Virus record (IMG/VR): IMGVR_UViG_3300025910_000021 | Span: 1 to 37,021 of that record | Reading direction: 5' to 3' (one strand) | Source of the DNA: a virus | Length of the DNA stretch: 37,021 nucleotides | Shown here: positions 2,833-26,491 of the stretch, in pieces | Numbering within the stretch: position 1 is the first letter of the stretch | Layout of the letters: every line of letters begins with the position of its first letter | Notes under the pieces: generated by a model | Told to the model about the DNA's origin: nothing | Seen by the model: the letters and a program-made list of their open reading frames with translations, nothing else | The model's database searches: none | Position numbers and translations under genes: made by a program

Positions 2833-3078
2833 CTAAAACCAGATCCATTCCACGCGGCACCAGTTCAAAGCCCCCGGATTCATCAGGTAGCGGGCATACT
2901 CTTGCGCCGCGACCAGGTGTGCGTTGAACAGCGCCGTGCCCTGTGGTGAATTGGTGTGGCCATCTTTGTCGTACCACTCGCTGCCGGTCAATACCCAGCG
3001 GCGGGTGTACTCTTGCATCGGCTGGCCGGGGATGATGCCGGCGGTGACTTCCCACGCGGCTCTGGCGCTCTCAGGCAT
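2833..3078 (-). CDS. hypothetical protein, 81 aa
   Basis: Starts MPESARAAW at 3078, overlapping the end of the upstream gene by 8 bases; the longer frame upstream lies inside that gene. The product has no TM segment and is rich in aromatic residues, ending LNWCRVEWIWF. Short phage proteins ending in a similar 'NW..(L/V)EWIW' tail occur in other genomes as far as I remember, but I know no function. It is part of the early operon, followed by the 105-base gap with the palindrome. Confidence 0.65.
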   Translation of the reverse strand: MPESARAAWEVTAGIIPGQPMQEYTRRWVLTGSEWYDKDGHTNSPQGTALFNAHLVAAQEYARYLMNPGALNWCRVEWIWF

Positions 3079-3337
3079 TGGGCGCTCCTTCCTGCTTCGC
3101 GGGACATTTCTGATTGTCGCACCATGTCCAGCCGCCATCCCCGCCGCACTGCGCACATGGCTCCGTGTCGCCCGGGTCGAACCACATGGGATCGTCCTCG
3201 TAGGCGTCGTATTCGCCCTCACCGCCGCATTGGTCGCAGTCGATCCACTCCAGGTCGTAGCCGCAGTGGGGACAGAGCGCGGGCGTGGGCTCCGCTTCGT
3301 CGTATTCCATCAGATCGGGGCCGATACGGTAGCTCAT
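3071..3337 (-). CDS. DnaJ-type zinc-finger protein, 88 aa
   Basis: Contains Cys pairs CPHCGYDL, CDQCGGEG, CAQCGGDG and CDNQKC. The two CxxCxGxG units match the zinc-binding repeats of the DnaJ central domain, so a small zinc-binding protein is well supported; the partner is unknown. The ATG at 3337 overlaps the TGA (3336-3334) of a leftover exonuclease 3' end, showing that this gene was once coupled by ATGA overlap to the exonuclease gene now separated from it by the homing endonuclease. Confidence 0.75.
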   Translation of the reverse strand: MSYRIGPDLMEYDEAEPTPALCPHCGYDLEWIDCDQCGGEGEYDAYEDDPMWFDPGDTEPCAQCGGDGGWTWCDNQKCPAKQEGAPNA

Positions 3338-3446: not shown

Positions 3447-4232
3447 CTATAGTCCCCATTCCTTTTTCCATCGGTACACCGTCCTGATGCTTAACCCTGT
3501 CATTTCGACTACATCATCAGGATGTATTCCCTGACTCAGTAGATCGAACATACGTTGATATGCGGGATTATTATGCCGCTGTTGTTCGTTGTAGGCTCGC
3601 TGCGCGGCGCGGCGATTGGCTTCCCACTCAGCAGTACGATGAGAGGCGATCTCGCTTATTTTAGTCCTGGTTGCTTCTGAGCGCCTGCTGCCGGTAGTGG
3701 CTTCGATACCTTTCTGTCGGATCTCAGGAGTGATCCGACCTTTCGATGATTCTCTCAGTTTCGCACGGGTCTCATCAGAGGCGCTCTGTCCGATCTTTCG
3801 TTGCCGTATCTTTTCGCGTGTCTCTTCGCTTAGTACACGCCCGATATTCGCGAGTCGCTTTTTCATGCGCGAAAGCGGTGAATGTATACGATTGCGATTC
3901 GCTTCGGCCACAGCATGCCGTGCATGTTCGCTGACGATTAGTCCGCTTGTGCCGTCCCCTCCATCGGTAAGGTTTACAAGATTTTCGCGGCCATAGTGCC
4001 GAATAAGCGCGATCTCATAATCAAGCGCCGCTTGTTCATCTGATGTGCGATAGACGATCACTTTTTGTACTTCACCGCCATTTCGCCATATCTTGCGAAT
4101 AACATTGCACTTACGGCAACTACAGCCGCGTTGTGCCTCCCACTCATGCTGGCGAATGCGCTTACCGCTCCCTTTGCCGACGTAAAATACCGATTCGTCG
4201 GGCCGCGCCAGTGTGTAAACGTAGAACTCCAT
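3447..4232 (-). CDS. GIY-YIG homing endonuclease with NUMOD3-like repeats
   Basis: 261 residues. The GIY-YIG nuclease fold is visible as FYVYTL (3-8), VFYVGKG (15-21), a conserved Arg near 25, Glu near 73 and Asn near 88 (VNLTDGGDG). Residues 36-42 add CSCRKC. The middle holds several NUMOD3-like DNA-contact units (S..SRMKKRLANIGR, SEETREKIRQRKIGQ, SDETRAKLRESSKGR). The end has a resolvase-like HTH (DVVEMTGLSIRTVYRWKKEW). The family makes site-specific breaks that drive copying of its own gene. The ATG at 4232 has AGAGGAG 5 bases upstream and its own promoter. It sits inside an exonuclease gene whose 3' end was regenerated. Confidence 0.93.
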   Translation of the reverse strand: MEFYVYTLARPDESVFYVGKGSGKRIRQHEWEAQRGCSCRKCNVIRKIWRNGGEVQKVIVYRTSDEQAALDYEIALIRHYGRENLVNLTDGGDGTSGLIVSEHARHAVAEANRNRIHSPLSRMKKRLANIGRVLSEETREKIRQRKIGQSASDETRAKLRESSKGRITPEIRQKGIEATTGSRRSEATRTKISEIASHRTAEWEANRRAAQRAYNEQQRHNNPAYQRMFDLLSQGIHPDDVVEMTGLSIRTVYRWKKEWGL

Positions 4233-4257
4233 AGTGCGCTCCTCTGTGTTTCTGCCA

Positions 4258-4329
4258 CGCCACCATTATACCACCATAATGACGCCACTGCAATTGACCT
4301 AGTGGCGAAATGGCGGTACAATAGTGGCG
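4258..4329. promoter_or_regulatory. back-to-back promoters with six mirror-arranged operator motifs
   Basis: Rightward promoter: TTGACC (4294-4299), 17 bases, TACAAT (4317-4322). Leftward promoter: TTGCAG (4293-4288), 17 bases, TATAAT (4270-4265). The -35 boxes abut. Six copies of a CGCCAC(C/T)-like motif lie at 4258, 4269, 4283 (one orientation) and 4301, 4310, 4323 (the other), almost symmetric about the -35 junction. This is what an array bound by a ribbon-helix-helix repressor would look like, and such a repressor is encoded by the rightward gene. Confidence 0.8.
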
Positions 4330-4348
4330 TAGTAGCAAGGAGCTTCCT

Positions 4349-4513
4349 ATGGACGATGAGAAAAAGCTGACACTCCGACTTCCAAAAGACCTGCACGATC
4401 GACTGATTCGAGCGGCGAATGAGGACACGCGATCGCTGAATGGTGAAGTTATTGCGTTGCTTCGTGCGGCGCTTGCTCAGCGGGATCGACAATCCCCGCC
4501 ATCCTCCGAATAA
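4349..4513 (+). CDS. Arc-type ribbon-helix-helix DNA-binding protein, 54 aa
   Basis: ATG at 4349 with AAGGAG six bases upstream. The sequence begins with a short strand KLTLRLP followed by two helices (DLHDRLIRAANEDTR and LNGEVIALLRAALAQ), the classic Arc/MetJ ribbon-helix-helix pattern. The gene is transcribed away from the homing endonuclease from a near-consensus promoter studded with repeated motifs, so it probably represses itself and the endonuclease. Its last 65 bases overlap, antisense, the final codons of the exonuclease gene, which supplies that enzyme's last 21 or so codons. Family assignment is firm; the regulatory role is inference. Confidence 0.88.
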   Translation: MDDEKKLTLRLPKDLHDRLIRAANEDTRSLNGEVIALLRAALAQRDRQSPPSSE

Positions 4514-5072
4514 CCGCAAGTGTTGCGCGACAGTCTCCCAATGCAGAATGATCGCCGCCCGGTAATTTTTGGAATCTATAATTCCCGTGATATGAAGAGT
4601 AATCTCCCACCCATTGCGCGTACCATTCCATTGCGCATGTTGTCTTCATCTGGCGTATCTCCTGTTCAGCCGGGCTATAGCGGTCCCACCATGTTTTGAT
4701 GTCGGTGAGGTACGGGCCGCCCGCGCTGGCGCGGCTACTGATCAGCATGCTGACGTCGTAACTCGCGTTATAGATCACGATCTCGCGACCGGCGCATAGG
4801 TCGGCGATCTTCGGCCAAACGTGATCGAAGGTCGGCGCGTCTTTGACCATTTCGTCACTTATGTGATGAATGCTGCGCGCGGCTGGCGGGATCGGCTTCG
4901 ACGGCTTGACGAGCGTGTCGAGCAGCACGGCGCCAGTAAGATCGATAATAGCGATAGAACAAATTTCATCGGTCGTATCTAAGCCAGTGGTTTCTGTGTC
5001 CAGCACCACGGCTGTGCCTTCGTTCAGCAGCTGCCGTGCCCAGCCGGCCGCGGCCTTGCGATCGTCGTTCAT
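4449..5072 (-). CDS. DEDDh-family 3'-5' exonuclease (DNA polymerase III epsilon-like)
   Basis: 207 residues. ExoI is VVLDTETTGLD (Asp25, Glu27), ExoII is YNASYDVSML (Asp106) and ExoIII is HSALGDC (His175, Asp180), so all catalytic residues are present. The family removes nucleotides from 3' ends of DNA or RNA; in phages it may proofread, process ends or degrade host nucleic acid. The ATG at 5072 overlaps the upstream TGA (ATGA). The C-terminal tail after VIRRMAG is encoded by DNA antisense to the ribbon-helix-helix gene, and a diverged copy of the true tail lies at 3334-3446, so the present 3' end probably arrived with the homing cassette. Confidence 0.92.
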   Translation of the reverse strand: MNDDRKAAAGWARQLLNEGTAVVLDTETTGLDTTDEICSIAIIDLTGAVLLDTLVKPSKPIPPAARSIHHISDEMVKDAPTFDHVWPKIADLCAGREIVIYNASYDVSMLISSRASAGGPYLTDIKTWWDRYSPAEQEIRQMKTTCAMEWYAQWVGDYSSYHGNYRFQKLPGGDHSALGDCRATLAVIRRMAGIVDPAEQAPHEATQ

Positions 5073-10920: not shown

Positions 10921-11086
10921 CCCTTCGATTGTCCTACATCACCACTTCATACAACCTCCTAACCGCAAAGCGGAGCCGTCGCACCCCGCGCGATTGCGTA
11001 GCGCCATGTCAGCGCGCCCCAATCGCTCGAATTGCCGCGTTCCCTCAACGGGCGAATCTCTCGCCACGTTGCGATGGAGGATGACC

Positions 11087-12040
11087 ATGGAGTCCCTTGA
11101 CCGCCGGATTGACCTTGCCCACGCGCCGGCCGCGTTCGCCGTCGCACTCACCCCGCCGACGATCGCCGAGACCCTGCCGAACTTCGCCGCGGCCCTGGCC
11201 GGCCGCAAGCTCTCACCCCGCACGATCGACACCTACCGCCGCGCCGTCCGCTACTTCGGCACATGGCTCGGACCAGAGGCCACAATCGCCGACATCCAGC
11301 CCGGCACCCTGCTCGCATTCCAGAGTGACATGCGGAAACGGGAGAGCGCCACCATCCGCAAGTACTTCTGCGCGCTGCGCTGCTACTGCCGCTGGCTCAT
11401 CCGCGCCCGCCTCAGGGGGGACGACCCGACGATGGATCTGATCTGGCCGCAGCGGACGACCCCACTGCCGCGCGCGCTCTCGTCAGCAGATAAAGCGAAA
11501 CTCGAATGGCTGCTTGAGCGACCGCTACCCGTGCTGGACAAAGCCAAGCGCTGGGTGCTCATCCGCGACCGGCGGGCGATCGTCGTGATGTGGTATGCCG
11601 GGGTGCGGCTCAGTGAAGCGGTTAATCTGAAGTGGGCAGACATTGACCTGCAAGCGCGGTCGCTCACCGTGCAACACGGCAAGGGCAACAAGACCCGCGT
11701 GGTTGGGCTGCATAGCCGATTGGTCGCGTGCCTGGAAGCGGTTGGAGAAGCCGAGCGGGTCGGCTACGTCGTTGGCGGCCGGGGCGGTCGCAAGATTGCA
11801 GGGAAGACACTCGCCAAGATGTTTGAAGCGGGTGGCTGGGTGCGGGAGGCCGGGCTGGACATCTCGGCACACGAGCTGCGCCATACGTTCGCGGTGACGT
11901 TGCTTCGGAACGGCGCGGATCTCCGGGCGATCCAGCTGCTCTTAGGACATGCGAGCCTGGCGACGACTCAGATCTATTTGTCGCTGGATCTGAAAGACAA
12001 ACAGAAGGCGATCGACCTGCTGCCCGATAGGATGGGGTAG
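11087..12040 (+). CDS. int: tyrosine site-specific recombinase (integrase)
   Basis: 317 residues. The N-terminal SAM-like core-binding domain (about 25-110, including LSPRTIDTYRRAVRYF) is followed by the catalytic domain with Arg174 (AGVRLSEAVNLKW), Lys in HGKGNKTR (199-202), HELRHTF (His262, Arg265), GHASLATT (His288) and Tyr297 (QIYLSL). All catalytic residues are present. XerC/D-like in size with no long arm-binding domain. ATG 11087 is preferred over upstream Mets because GGAGG lies 6 bases before it. It is transcribed divergently from the early operon and directs integration into the host chromosome. Confidence 0.95.
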   Translation: MESLDRRIDLAHAPAAFAVALTPPTIAETLPNFAAALAGRKLSPRTIDTYRRAVRYFGTWLGPEATIADIQPGTLLAFQSDMRKRESATIRKYFCALRCYCRWLIRARLRGDDPTMDLIWPQRTTPLPRALSSADKAKLEWLLERPLPVLDKAKRWVLIRDRRAIVVMWYAGVRLSEAVNLKWADIDLQARSLTVQHGKGNKTRVVGLHSRLVACLEAVGEAERVGYVVGGRGGRKIAGKTLAKMFEAGGWVREAGLDISAHELRHTFAVTLLRNGADLRAIQLLLGHASLATTQIYLSLDLKDKQKAIDLLPDRMG

Positions 12041-15472: not shown

Positions 15473-15645
15473 CCGATGACCAGGTGCGGACGGCGATCGC
15501 GGTGCTGAACGCCTACGCGCGCGGCGAACTGCTGCTCGACAATGACATCCTTGACGAGCTGGAGACGGCGATCGAGACCGCTTTCAACAGCAGCCTGCCG
15601 GACGAACAGGACGACTACGACGCGCCCGGCGAGGCCGGCTACTAG
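15469..15645 (+). CDS. small acidic protein, TTG start, 58 aa
   Basis: TTG at 15469 overlaps the preceding TGA (TTGA) and has AGAGGTG 7 bases upstream. The product is strongly acidic with an Asp/Glu tail (LPDEQDDYDAPGEAG). Could be a DNA mimic or an inhibitor, but only the charge supports that. Confidence 0.65.
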   Translation: MTDDQVRTAIAVLNAYARGELLLDNDILDELETAIETAFNSSLPDEQDDYDAPGEAGY

Positions 15646-15715
15646 AACAACCTTCGGGCCACGCCGGCGCGCTTCACACTTCGACGTGGCCCCTACACCC
15701 CATGGGAGGATGCAC

Positions 15716-16252
15716 TTGCTAGTATATCACGACGATCGGGACCAGCGCATCGCGGTCCTTGAAGCGGAGAATGCCAGGTTGCGCCACAACAGCTACTTGA
15801 AGATGCTGAATAGCGCCGGCCTGCTGCATGCGATCGACCACCTGCCCGTCGCCCGCTACGTGCTGGTCCTCTGCGACGTGGACCAGATGAAGCAGGTCAA
15901 CAGCGCGACGGGCAGCCACGATCAGACCGATCGGCACCTCGCACGCGGCCTGAAGGTGCGTGACAACGAGCTCGCCGGCCAATTGCGCGGCGATGAGATC
16001 GTGTTCATTCTGGAGGAAGCCACGAACGCGCCGGCCTTCATCGCCCGCATCGGGGCGCAGCTCAGGAGGCAGCGACTTGACCCTGCGGCCCGGCGGGCGC
16101 TGCTGCTCGCGACCGGCCGGGCGCACATCACCGTCACGGCGGCCTGGCGGGCGGGGGTGCTGCCCTGCGAGATGCGCGCGGTGCTCGACGAACTGTCGGT
16201 TGAGGTGCTCGCGCTGAAAGCGGCCAGGGACGCGGTGGGGCCGCGCTGTTGA
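15716..16252 (+). CDS. GGDEF-type (diguanylate-cyclase-like) protein, 178 aa
   Basis: After a short coiled coil (RIAVLEAENARLRHN) comes a GGDEF-like fold: VLVLCDVDQMKQVN (the 'DxDxFKxvN' metal site), a helix region, LRGDEIVFIL (variant of GGDE[FL]) and a late strand AHITVTAAW, ending with LDELSVEVLALKAARD. Active cyclases normally have G/S/A-G-D-E at this place; here the first residue is Arg. It may make cyclic dinucleotides, bind GTP, or be an inactive decoy. The TTG at 15716 is preferred because GGGAGG lies 6 bases upstream; ATG 15710 abuts the site. Confidence 0.78.
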   Translation: MLVYHDDRDQRIAVLEAENARLRHNSYLKMLNSAGLLHAIDHLPVARYVLVLCDVDQMKQVNSATGSHDQTDRHLARGLKVRDNELAGQLRGDEIVFILEEATNAPAFIARIGAQLRRQRLDPAARRALLLATGRAHITVTAAWRAGVLPCEMRAVLDELSVEVLALKAARDAVGPRC

Positions 16253-23546: not shown

Positions 23547-23841
23547 GAACAAGAACCCGCAAACGCCCAAACCAAATATCCTGTCGCCAAGTCAAACGAC
23601 ACCGCCGCACGCACTCCCCAAACTCTCGAATGTTGAGTGCATGACCATCACGATCGTCGGCGTGCTGCCGCCGATTACGAAGGATAGCGAGGCCGCAGAG
23701 CAGGTCAATATGCAGGGCTTCATGGAGGCCATACGGCAAGCGCTGTTCGCGTTCTGGCCGAGTTTCGAGCCTGGGCATCCACCAGTCACGATCACCACAG
23801 TCACGCTACCCGAATTGAGGACGCCTGATGAGGAAAGTTAA
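23539..23841 (+). CDS. hypothetical head-module protein, 100 aa
   Basis: ATG 23539 overlaps the portal end by 8 bases and its own end overlaps the next gene by 14. A Pro/Ser/Thr-rich, probably disordered N-terminus precedes a short strand (MTITIVGVLPP) and helix (GFMEAIRQALFAF). Not recognised; could be a minor head protein. Confidence 0.65.
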   Translation: MGENKNPQTPKPNILSPSQTTPPHALPKLSNVECMTITIVGVLPPITKDSEAAEQVNMQGFMEAIRQALFAFWPSFEPGHPPVTITTVTLPELRTPDEES

Positions 23842-26491
23842 AAAGGGCAAGCCGCTTCAAGATGCCACAAAAGGCAGCTCGGAATATTTTATCTACGAAG
23901 TAGATAGATCTTTCCGCGCGCAGTTCGGCTACCAGGCCTGGAACTACTGCATTGTCGATACATTCGCCGACCATATCATTCTGCGTGACTTCGATCTGCC
24001 GCAAGATGAATATTGGCTCGTGACCTACACCCCCGATGCGGACGGCGATTACACCTTCGCGTTGCAGGACCAGTGGGAGAAGGTCGAGCTGGCCTACGCG
24101 CCCTCCAAGAACCCCATGCCGCCCGAACCCGAACCGCCCGACGACACCATGCTAGGGGGCATGATGGGCGATTCGACGCGTATCCGGCGCCGCTTACTCA
24201 TAGAGTCGGCCGGGCCGATCGCGCTGGTCGAATCGGCTGGCGATTCAGGCATCCGCCGGGTGCGCGGGATCGGCATGACCGCCGGCAGCATTAACGAGAA
24301 TATGCGCCGCTACCCCGCGCCGGTGATCGCCGATGCGGTGGAAAAGGTGCGGCAGCAGCTGGGCAACCCGGCCGGGCGGATCGGGCGCGGGCCACTCTTA
24401 GGTGAGGCCGAACACCCGAGCGATCGCGGGCAGGGCCGCGCGCTGTGGCTGAACACCGTGTTCGTGTGGGACAGTATCAGCTTCAACGATAACCAGGTCA
24501 TGCTAGATGGGCGGATTGTGCCGACCAGCCAGGGGCAGGACGCGCTCATTCTGCTTGAGGCCGGCGTGCTGCCGGGACTCTCTCTCCGTGGCCTCGGGCG
24601 CAGCGTGCTGCTGCAAGAGGCCGGAAGCACTATCGAAGAAGTCCAGGAATTAGAGCTGATTGGCTGGGATGCCACGATCGACCCGGCGGACGCGACCGCC
24701 GATCTTGTTTTACAGGAGACTGCTATGCTCAAGGGATTCTTGCGCGGCATGCGCGCACCAGACGACGGCAAGACTCCCGCGAGTGGCGCGGGAAAGGCGG
24801 ACGGCAAAGAGACGCTTAAAGGCGAAAGCGGAAAGACGAAAGACGAAAAGACCGCTGAGATTCAGCCACGCACCCTACTCGCGGGTGAAGTGCTGGAGTC
24901 GGCTGCCGTCGGCCTCTCCGCCGATGACAGAAAACGCCTCGATCGGCTGGCCGAGTCGGAGCGGAGAGCACACGTCGCTGAGGCGATCGACACCGCGCTT
25001 GCCGACGCGCCCTACAGCCAGCCTATCCGGCAGCAGATCGCCGACGCCGTGCGCGCGCTCGATCTGGGGAGCGCGGAGGCCGTACCCGGCGCAATCGAGC
25101 GCCAGCGCGCGGTGGCGGATGCGATGCTCGCTCAGGCGCAGCTGCAATTGATGGGCCGGCCTGGCCCGCGCGCGCCGGTCATTAGCGGTGGGGGCACACA
25201 ACTCGTCCCCGACTACGCCAAGCCACAGCAGGCGATTACGGATAGCCTCGTCCTGGCGACCGGGCGACCGTCCAAGCTCGCGCGGCTGGCCTCCCCACAG
25301 TCGGTCAACGAGCGCTTCGCGGTCGAGATGCTGCGCCGTTTCGACGCGGCCTACAAGCACCACCTGATCGCGGAGGCGCGGATGTTCCAGGATGCCGAGC
25401 AGGCCAGCGACCTGGCGCTGCCCTACACGATCATGCGGACGGTGATCGCGGAGATGGTGCCGGAATTGATCGCGGTCTCGGTCTTCGATACCCAATCGGT
25501 TGACCCGGCGCCGACGGTCAACATCCCGTATGAGACCTACGCCGGCGAAACCGGCCTCTCTGGCACGATCACCGATGAGGTGGTGGTGGCCAGCCTTGAC
25601 GTGTGGGTCAATCTCGCGCACCAGCATCTGACCGGCGGCAGCGACGTGCTCACGCACACCTCTGGCTCCCCCACCTACGTCAACGGCACCGACTATGTGA
25701 TCGACGTCCTGGGCGGGCGGCTGATGGCGCTGAGTGGCGGCGCGATTACGGCATCGCAGTCGCTCAAGCTCGACTACACCTACGCGGCGATCCGCCAGGG
25801 CGAGATGGTGCCGATCGAGCGCGGCAAGCTAACCCTGGCGTTCTACCCGATGGTCATGGCCGCCGATCGGCTCGCGACGCAGATCAGCAGCGAGGCGATG
25901 GTGTTCAGTCGCGCCGTGCTGGGGTACGACGCGGTGGGCCGCGCGCTCTCTCGCATCATGTTCGAGGTGCGGCGGAAAATCGACGGCGGGCTGTTCTACC
26001 TGGCCTTAGCAGAGGCGCTGCGCGTCGCGAGCAACTCGGGCGGCACCTGGACCGCCGCGACCGATACCTACGACGACTTAGCAGCCTTCGTCGGCGTCGC
26101 CAAAGTCAAGGTGGCCAATCGCTTCTTTGTGCCGACCGCGATCATCATGAGCGAGACCAACGCCGACCGGATTGCGAACTGGATCGGCTTCACGGCTGCT
26201 GGCGCGCGCCCCGACGCCGATCTGAACGCGAGCGGCTACGTGGGGCGGCTCAAGGCATTGCCGGTGTTCGCCACCACCGAATTTAGTGACAGCTACATCC
26301 TCGCGCTCAACCGCGAGGTGGTCTACTACCGCGTGGGCCAGCCGATGCAGCTCAAGGGACCGTATCCGAGCTACGACCCGGCCGGCACGGGCAAGCTGAT
26401 TGCGGCTGATCAGTACTTTGTTGAAGAGTACAATGGGTCGACGGGCGATCCTGGCCACTCAGGCAAGGCGGCGAGCGTTAAGATCGTTTAG
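23828..26491 (+). CDS. fused prohead protease, scaffold and major capsid protein, 887 aa
   Basis: A 110-residue N-terminal domain of unknown type is followed by an S80-like prohead protease (about 115-295): GIGMTAGSINENMRRYP, GEAEHPSD with catalytic His196, LSLRGLG with Ser252 and an Asp near 281-285. A charged scaffold/delta region (about 300-440) leads to an HK97-fold major capsid protein (about 455-887). Such protease-capsid fusions are rare but known; the protease would cut itself and the scaffold out. An internal start at 24725 may supply excess scaffold-capsid. Domain calls for protease and capsid are good; the triad Asp is a guess. Confidence 0.85.
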   Translation: MRKVKKGKPLQDATKGSSEYFIYEVDRSFRAQFGYQAWNYCIVDTFADHIILRDFDLPQDEYWLVTYTPDADGDYTFALQDQWEKVELAYAPSKNPMPPEPEPPDDTMLGGMMGDSTRIRRRLLIESAGPIALVESAGDSGIRRVRGIGMTAGSINENMRRYPAPVIADAVEKVRQQLGNPAGRIGRGPLLGEAEHPSDRGQGRALWLNTVFVWDSISFNDNQVMLDGRIVPTSQGQDALILLEAGVLPGLSLRGLGRSVLLQEAGSTIEEVQELELIGWDATIDPADATADLVLQETAMLKGFLRGMRAPDDGKTPASGAGKADGKETLKGESGKTKDEKTAEIQPRTLLAGEVLESAAVGLSADDRKRLDRLAESERRAHVAEAIDTALADAPYSQPIRQQIADAVRALDLGSAEAVPGAIERQRAVADAMLAQAQLQLMGRPGPRAPVISGGGTQLVPDYAKPQQAITDSLVLATGRPSKLARLASPQSVNERFAVEMLRRFDAAYKHHLIAEARMFQDAEQASDLALPYTIMRTVIAEMVPELIAVSVFDTQSVDPAPTVNIPYETYAGETGLSGTITDEVVVASLDVWVNLAHQHLTGGSDVLTHTSGSPTYVNGTDYVIDVLGGRLMALSGGAITASQSLKLDYTYAAIRQGEMVPIERGKLTLAFYPMVMAADRLATQISSEAMVFSRAVLGYDAVGRALSRIMFEVRRKIDGGLFYLALAEALRVASNSGGTWTAATDTYDDLAAFVGVAKVKVANRFFVPTAIIMSETNADRIANWIGFTAAGARPDADLNASGYVGRLKALPVFATTEFSDSYILALNREVVYYRVGQPMQLKGPYPSYDPAGTGKLIAADQYFVEEYNGSTGDPGHSGKAASVKIV
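24725..26491 (+). CDS. internal-start product: scaffold plus major capsid protein, 588 aa
   Basis: ATG 24725 (residue 300 of the fusion) has AGGAG six bases upstream (24714-24718), as good a ribosome site as any in the phage. It lies right at the protease/scaffold border. In-frame internal initiation is how lambda makes Nu3 inside C. It would give many capsid subunits per protease. Not proven by sequence alone. Confidence 0.6.
   Translation: MLKGFLRGMRAPDDGKTPASGAGKADGKETLKGESGKTKDEKTAEIQPRTLLAGEVLESAAVGLSADDRKRLDRLAESERRAHVAEAIDTALADAPYSQPIRQQIADAVRALDLGSAEAVPGAIERQRAVADAMLAQAQLQLMGRPGPRAPVISGGGTQLVPDYAKPQQAITDSLVLATGRPSKLARLASPQSVNERFAVEMLRRFDAAYKHHLIAEARMFQDAEQASDLALPYTIMRTVIAEMVPELIAVSVFDTQSVDPAPTVNIPYETYAGETGLSGTITDEVVVASLDVWVNLAHQHLTGGSDVLTHTSGSPTYVNGTDYVIDVLGGRLMALSGGAITASQSLKLDYTYAAIRQGEMVPIERGKLTLAFYPMVMAADRLATQISSEAMVFSRAVLGYDAVGRALSRIMFEVRRKIDGGLFYLALAEALRVASNSGGTWTAATDTYDDLAAFVGVAKVKVANRFFVPTAIIMSETNADRIANWIGFTAAGARPDADLNASGYVGRLKALPVFATTEFSDSYILALNREVVYYRVGQPMQLKGPYPSYDPAGTGKLIAADQYFVEEYNGSTGDPGHSGKAASVKIV

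Follow-up and report, generated by a model that had tools for sequence, protein, structure and literature searches.

The GIY-YIG endonuclease gene of this phage lies inside a DnaQ-type exonuclease gene, together with a divergent gene for a small ribbon-helix-helix (RHH) protein of the Arc type, and is flanked by a duplicated exonuclease 3′ end, a setting that a preliminary description of the locus had missed. On balance, we favor the view that the locus is a homing cassette, inserted into an exonuclease gene of a temperate tailed phage and composed of a foreign 3′ end, the RHH gene and the endonuclease gene, in which the RHH protein would repress both promoters. The window, by which we mean the whole stretch of DNA that was analyzed, is a 37,021-base virus record carrying genes for an integrase, a terminase, a portal-like protein, a prohead protease and a sheath-like protein, and the phage is therefore probably temperate and tailed. 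The features of the locus, and the integrase gene, are as follows.

3071-3337, minus strand: next gene of the native operon, encoding a zinc-ribbon-like protein, with its ATG at 3337-3335
3444-3334, minus strand: orphan exonuclease 3′ end, most likely the native one, reading RWQRLPGGDHTALGDAVACLQVIRKMAGVEAKEQSV and then stop, beside the endonuclease stop codon
3447-4232, minus strand: GIY-YIG homing endonuclease of 261 aa (GIY-YIG, NUMOD3 and C-terminal HTH; Pfam, PHROG)
4349-4513, plus strand: Arc-type RHH gene encoding 54 aa and diverging from the endonuclease gene (Pfam Arc)
4449-4513, both strands: RHH and exonuclease genes overlapping tail to tail, by 65 bases
4449 to about 4577, minus strand: exonuclease 3′ end, most likely imported, running from R166/F167 to the stop, with ExoIII-type His175 and Asp180
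4449-5072, minus strand: DnaQ-type (DEDDh, RNase_T) exonuclease, host gene of the cassette, with intact frame and the 3′ end that is most likely imported
10994-12040, plus strand: integrase (domain/family match)

Two further genes of the contig were noted in passing. One (15542-16252, plus strand) encodes a degenerate GGDEF domain with RGDEI replacing GGDEF (Pfam E=2.2e-6), possibly a c-di-GMP-related phage protein. The other (23828-26491, plus strand) encodes 887 aa with a prohead serine protease domain (residues 144-290) and, at 578-660, a match to an Ig-like tail protein, possibly a protease-structural fusion.

The exonuclease gene has two 3′ ends

Within the window, a 3′ end in frame with the resident exonuclease gene, apparently foreign, is followed by the endonuclease gene and then by a displaced 3′ end that is most likely native. 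The orphan (3444-3334) and the exonuclease C-terminus are identical in 23 of 36 aligned columns (RWQRLPGGDHTALGD vs. RFQKLPGGDHSALGD) and at 46 of 81 bases, and both copies have the same shortened loop, which the other phage relatives lack. The family typically ends in a segment, WQRLPGGDHTALGD, that includes two residues of the third exonuclease motif, His and Asp. The orphan's TGA and the ATG that starts the next gene overlap (ATGA, 3337-3334), while the intact exonuclease end has no such overlap. In five viral relatives the exonuclease is uninterrupted and the endonuclease absent, a presence/absence polymorphism at the insertion site, and in four of them the uninterrupted exonuclease stop overlaps the start of the following gene, which it abuts in the fifth. 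Because only the orphan stop overlaps the next gene, as in these relatives, the native end is most likely the orphan, and the intact gene most likely ends in imported sequence. The imported end looks functional, in that it restores the frame and the third-motif His and Asp, and exonuclease activity is predicted. That the RHH and exonuclease genes overlap by 65 bases suggests joint transfer of the tail and the RHH gene.

Base composition was compared across the same genes. Third-position GC (GC3) is 0.79 in resident genes vs. 0.50 in the endonuclease gene (Fisher p=9e-23) and 0.49 in the RHH gene; within the exonuclease gene it is 0.72 in codons 1-140 vs. 0.49 in codons 141-207 (p=0.002), and the import may reach farther upstream than the duplicated part, to about codon 141. 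Composition alone is weak evidence, because the second half of the orphan (8/22) and exonuclease codons 21-50 are also low in GC3. A second short low-GC3 stretch, away from the cassette, was located at exonuclease codons 25-46 (4935-5000, minus strand).

Several simpler origins of this anatomy were discarded. A group I intron was rejected since the exonuclease frame stays open as far as its own stop, which lies upstream of the cassette, and a recent tandem duplication of the exonuclease end was rejected since 35 of 81 bases differ between the copies. Identities of the orphan and imported ends over the 81-base block overlap, at 44-59 of 81, in a set of just five distant relatives; a "deliberate recoding" of the imported end is unsupported, its divergence from the orphan being near the range seen among relatives.

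One relative (IMGVR_UViG_3300043331_000999; L063) also shares the membrane-protein gene found at 1657-2763 of the window, and neither the endonuclease nor the Arc gene was detected in it. Its lowest GC3 (0.25, rank 1 of 330 16-codon windows) falls exactly at the insertion site, around the LPGGDH codons, and the DNA there is 83% identical to the imported end in our window vs. 55% overall. This patch may be a conversion (homing) scar or a resistant allele, a suggestive sign only, because few parts of the protein are as conserved as this site.

Two divergent promoters share a mirrored motif array

The endonuclease matches LEM-3_GIY-YIG (E=3.9e-12), with NUMOD3 and C-terminal HTH_23 above cut-off, and its best PHROG is "homing endonuclease" (E=7.7e-23). 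In an alignment of 11 sequences the catalytic-type residues Y6, Y17, G19, R25, E73 and N87 are invariant. Judged by these matches, the protein is a seg-like homing endonuclease, with cleavage and transfer predicted. Its gene ends in a stop codon at 3449-3447 and is co-directional with the exonuclease operon, and its transcription could also come by read-through from that operon, past a local repressor. The RHH protein matches Pfam Arc (PF03869, E=1.4e-7, above cut-off), and its nearest solved relatives, at weak E-values, are AmrZ and Arc. An AGGAG-type ribosome site precedes both genes. Between them we mapped the following elements.

4253-4329, both strands: shared control region with six GTGGCG-type copies and GGTGGT (motif count, shuffles)
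4265-4293, minus strand: endonuclease promoter, TTGCAG (4293-4288), 17 bases, TATAAT (4270-4265), with extended -10 TGGTATAAT (read from sequence)
4294-4322, plus strand: RHH promoter, TTGACC (4294-4299), 17 bases, TACAAT (4317-4322) (promoter scan)
4259-4276, minus strand: left copy of the mirrored 18-base element TGGYGGTAYAATRGTGGC, over the endonuclease -10 (exact repeat search)
4311-4328, plus strand: right copy of the same element, over the RHH -10 (exact repeat search)

The preliminary description had the endonuclease gene and the 54-residue RHH gene diverge from one control region, with abutting -35 boxes, 17-base spacers and six motif copies in near-mirror arrangement, and this picture was borne out in each respect: both reading frames and their domains were confirmed, the -35 boxes abut at 4293/4294, and the motif copies exceed those of shuffled sequence. 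The endonuclease promoter falls below the scan threshold, because its -35 box matches the consensus at only three of six positions. Exact GTGGCG copies stand at 4258(-), 4283(-), 4302(+) and 4324(+), copies with one mismatch at 4253(-) and 4310(+), and GGTGGT at 4271(-). None of 5000 dinucleotide shuffles held four exact copies, and six copies with at most one mismatch had p=0.0004; since GTGGCG was picked after inspection of the sequence, the fair figure is p=0.0014, obtained for any 6-mer that is found four times. Such four-fold 6-mers occur elsewhere in this GC-rich contig too, and a second GTGGCG cluster was absent from it, with at most two exact copies per 85 bases elsewhere. The 18-base element occurs exactly twice in the window (expected 0), the two copies being exact mirror images about 4293.5, the -35 junction. 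Its sole outside match among all viral contigs, within a structural gene of an unrelated phage, was set aside as chance.

The array thus spans both promoters, and the repeated operator-like sites extend over that of the RHH gene itself. It is plausible that the divergent Arc-like protein governs both genes through the array, because the array spans both promoters, no second cluster is present, and an RHH relative has an array of its own. Relatives of the RHH gene occupy divergent regions, where they face other genes: in Paracoccus phage Pkon1 and in the IMG/VR contig L067 the divergent partner is a second Arc gene. The divergent region of L067 carries GTGTCA four times (p=0.0035) with no endonuclease involved. 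Divergent regions of the Arc/Mnt type, among them immI of phage P22 and those of Pkon1 and L067, have in common with the locus studied here a small RHH protein, divergent promoters and repeated short sites; they differ in that the partner gene here is an endonuclease and the motif is GTGGCG rather than the GTGTCA found near RHH relatives, the operator role being putative for both motifs. Repeats of GTGTCA or TTGGTGTCA upstream of Arc relatives, at 2872-2988 in L067 and about 2480-2560 in L069, are probable RHH operator arrays in their own right. These comparisons lend indirect support to the operator role of the array, and the RHH protein is probably a dedicated repressor of the endonuclease gene and of its own gene. 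The predicted regulatory layout has precedent among RHH relatives, whereas an endonuclease as the partner appears to be without precedent in the collections searched.

The endonuclease-RHH pair in other genomes

Endonuclease homologues were collected from phage records, from IMG/VR (with a two-sequence profile) and from bacterial genomes, giving 47 in 44 loci, the best of which (L027) is 46% identical. The preliminary description had looked to co-occurrence of GIY-YIG and adjacent RHH genes elsewhere as a check on its proposal. This expectation failed: by sequence search, none of the 47 homologues, all at most 46% identical, has an adjacent RHH gene, and none of the 65 divergent neighbor ORFs carries an RHH domain, while the RHH protein of the window itself, serving as positive control, was found. 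An RHH gene 1.6 kb from the endonuclease of L056 was not counted as a pair, as it lies on the same strand with other genes between. The nearest homologue opposes the direction of its neighbors (L027, 57-230) and sits behind a strong hairpin. Like the endonuclease gene of the window, it has an extended -10 promoter of its own (GTGGTATAAT).

When viral contigs were scanned with the endonuclease, the exonuclease and the RHH protein one at a time, an approach that reaches close relatives only, no match was obtained. Records with the same terminase lacked matches to the exonuclease, the endonuclease and Arc alike. Among 291 genomes from the phylum of the terminase-bearing MAG, there were seven exonuclease matches (37-45% identical) and two weak endonuclease matches (E ~1e-6, 35-37% identity), the latter without RHH. 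A full-text literature search, with most subscription papers outside its coverage, yielded neither an endonuclease with an RHH repressor nor a phage case of a duplicated C-terminus. In the collections searched, therefore, the combination is seen at one locus only, while each part is known elsewhere.

Proposed mechanism and alternative explanations

Under the explanation we favor, the endonuclease would act on an exonuclease gene that is still uninterrupted in a related phage, cutting it near the RWQ/LPGGDH codons, and repair would copy the cassette into the cut gene. The exonuclease would keep working by way of the imported end, with the native end stranded behind the endonuclease gene, and the inserted allele, with a target now split and half replaced, would for that reason be immune. 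Dimers of the RHH protein, bound to the GTGGCG array over both promoters, would repress the endonuclease gene and their own; where a cell contains no RHH protein, the endonuclease promoter would briefly be free. In a lysogen, then, RHH may keep the endonuclease off, and entry into an RHH-free cell may release it. Given the integrase, such timing by zygotic induction is plausible, if speculative. The proposal of a selfish cassette, made in the preliminary description, comes out stronger, in that the block appears to bring a foreign 3′ end for its host gene and to leave the native end behind. Several observations count against our explanation: no donor allele for the imported end was found, the endonuclease -35 is weak, the pair has no second case, and the motif is unlike that of the RHH relatives.

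A first alternative is ordinary intergenic homing of the seg type, which we judge unlikely. Here a donor would have carried the endonuclease downstream of its exonuclease gene with an unrelated RHH gene between them, so that the exonuclease end and the RHH gene came along as passengers; repair would have used one-sided homology, the native end would have been stranded by an end-joining-like junction, and the RHH protein would control the gene that encodes it, perhaps along with something in the donor, but would not regulate the endonuclease as part of a unit. In T4 homing, flanking sequence is as a rule co-converted (PMC2988022), the endonuclease-RHH pair does not recur, and the GC3 drop from about codon 141 begins upstream of the duplicated part, as in a conversion tract. 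Passengers fit poorly, however, with a junction directly after the endonuclease stop codon, with an array that extends over the endonuclease promoter no less fully than over the RHH promoter and includes the mirrored 18-base element, and with a contig that has no other array.

The RHH protein could instead serve the phage in lysogeny or immunity, as a regulator of Arc/Mnt type, the endonuclease gene having landed beside its gene and using the gap as a promoter. The closest RHH relatives do form divergent Arc/Arc pairs, one of them beside a KilA-N gene, an arrangement also seen in immI of P22, and the phage has an integrase; yet the contig holds no second operator cluster, five phages with a related exonuclease have no Arc gene, and the composition of the RHH gene matches the endonuclease gene rather than the phage. 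We consider this reading improbable, and find least probable of all that the endonuclease represses itself as I-TevI does, with the GTGGCG array as its operator and the RHH gene incidental. The I-TevI operator over its own promoter resembles the homing site at 15 of 20 positions (PMC2988022), and the endonuclease here has a C-terminal HTH. Against this, the similarity of the control region to the presumed homing target (the orphan and the intact exonuclease end) is no better than in shuffles (p=0.22 and 0.72), and an operator of the I-TevI type was rejected since no promoter-overlapping site resembling that target was found. Multiple short repeats over two divergent promoters also fit a small RHH dimer, and such repeats accompany RHH relatives where no endonuclease is present.

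Discussion

The closest published anatomy to the cassette is that of mobile ORFs in fungal mitochondria, in which an inserted C-terminus, an endonuclease ORF and the displaced native C-terminus follow one another in atp6, atp9, cox2 and nad3; in atp6 the two ends share 63.5% nucleotide identity (PMC3630166). The Allomyces atp6 and Glomus atp6, atp9, cox2 and nad3 elements have the same in-frame foreign 3′ end with a diverged native end downstream. In contrast to these elements, the locus described here belongs to a phage, its endonuclease is GIY-YIG rather than the LAGLIDADG type of Glomus atp6, and it has a divergent RHH gene and an operator-like array, features not described there for mobile ORFs (PMC3630166).

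SegA-SegG of phage T4 are likewise phage GIY-YIG endonucleases whose probable target is a conserved neighbor gene, and as with seg genes the endonuclease gene is co-directional with the operon (PMC2988022). The T4 seg genes are intergenic, and several have no promoter of their own; neither a separate repressor nor a duplicated target-gene end is described there for them (PMC2988022). The preliminary description had said that free-standing homing endonucleases are not usually known to carry a transcriptional repressor of their own. The wider idea that such repression is unknown for homing endonucleases calls for caution, for intron-encoded I-TevI represses its own promoter (PMC2988022); a separate, dedicated repressor of a free-standing endonuclease was not found described. 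The likeness to I-TevI lies in transcriptional repression, here predicted, over the endonuclease's own promoter; unlike I-TevI, which is itself the repressor and whose operator resembles the homing site (PMC2988022), the present locus has a separate RHH gene and no such resemblance. Taken together, the endonuclease is best described as seg-like, with a C-terminal rescue segment and, probably, a dedicated repressor.

In its layout the locus also resembles an engineered system, the CRISPR-based, synthetic home-and-rescue (HomeR) drive of Drosophila, where a nuclease element is placed toward the 3′ end of its target's coding sequence and a re-coded 3′ end rescues the gene (PMC7968924). The difference is that the element here is natural and that its homing and rescue are predicted. 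Whether it amounts to a natural, regulated home-and-rescue element, one that would carry the repair for the gene it breaks along with its own repressor, stay silent in its carrier and be released in a repressor-free cell, is a tentative and rather doubtful proposition.

How homing endonucleases persist without harm to their carriers is a general question, which introns and inteins answer by splicing. This locus would represent another solution in a phage: a replacement gene end, as known from fungal mitochondria, with the addition of a candidate dedicated off-switch. It thereby offers a prediction on how the dose of a selfish nuclease may be controlled, and may provide a natural counterpart to engineered rescue drives.
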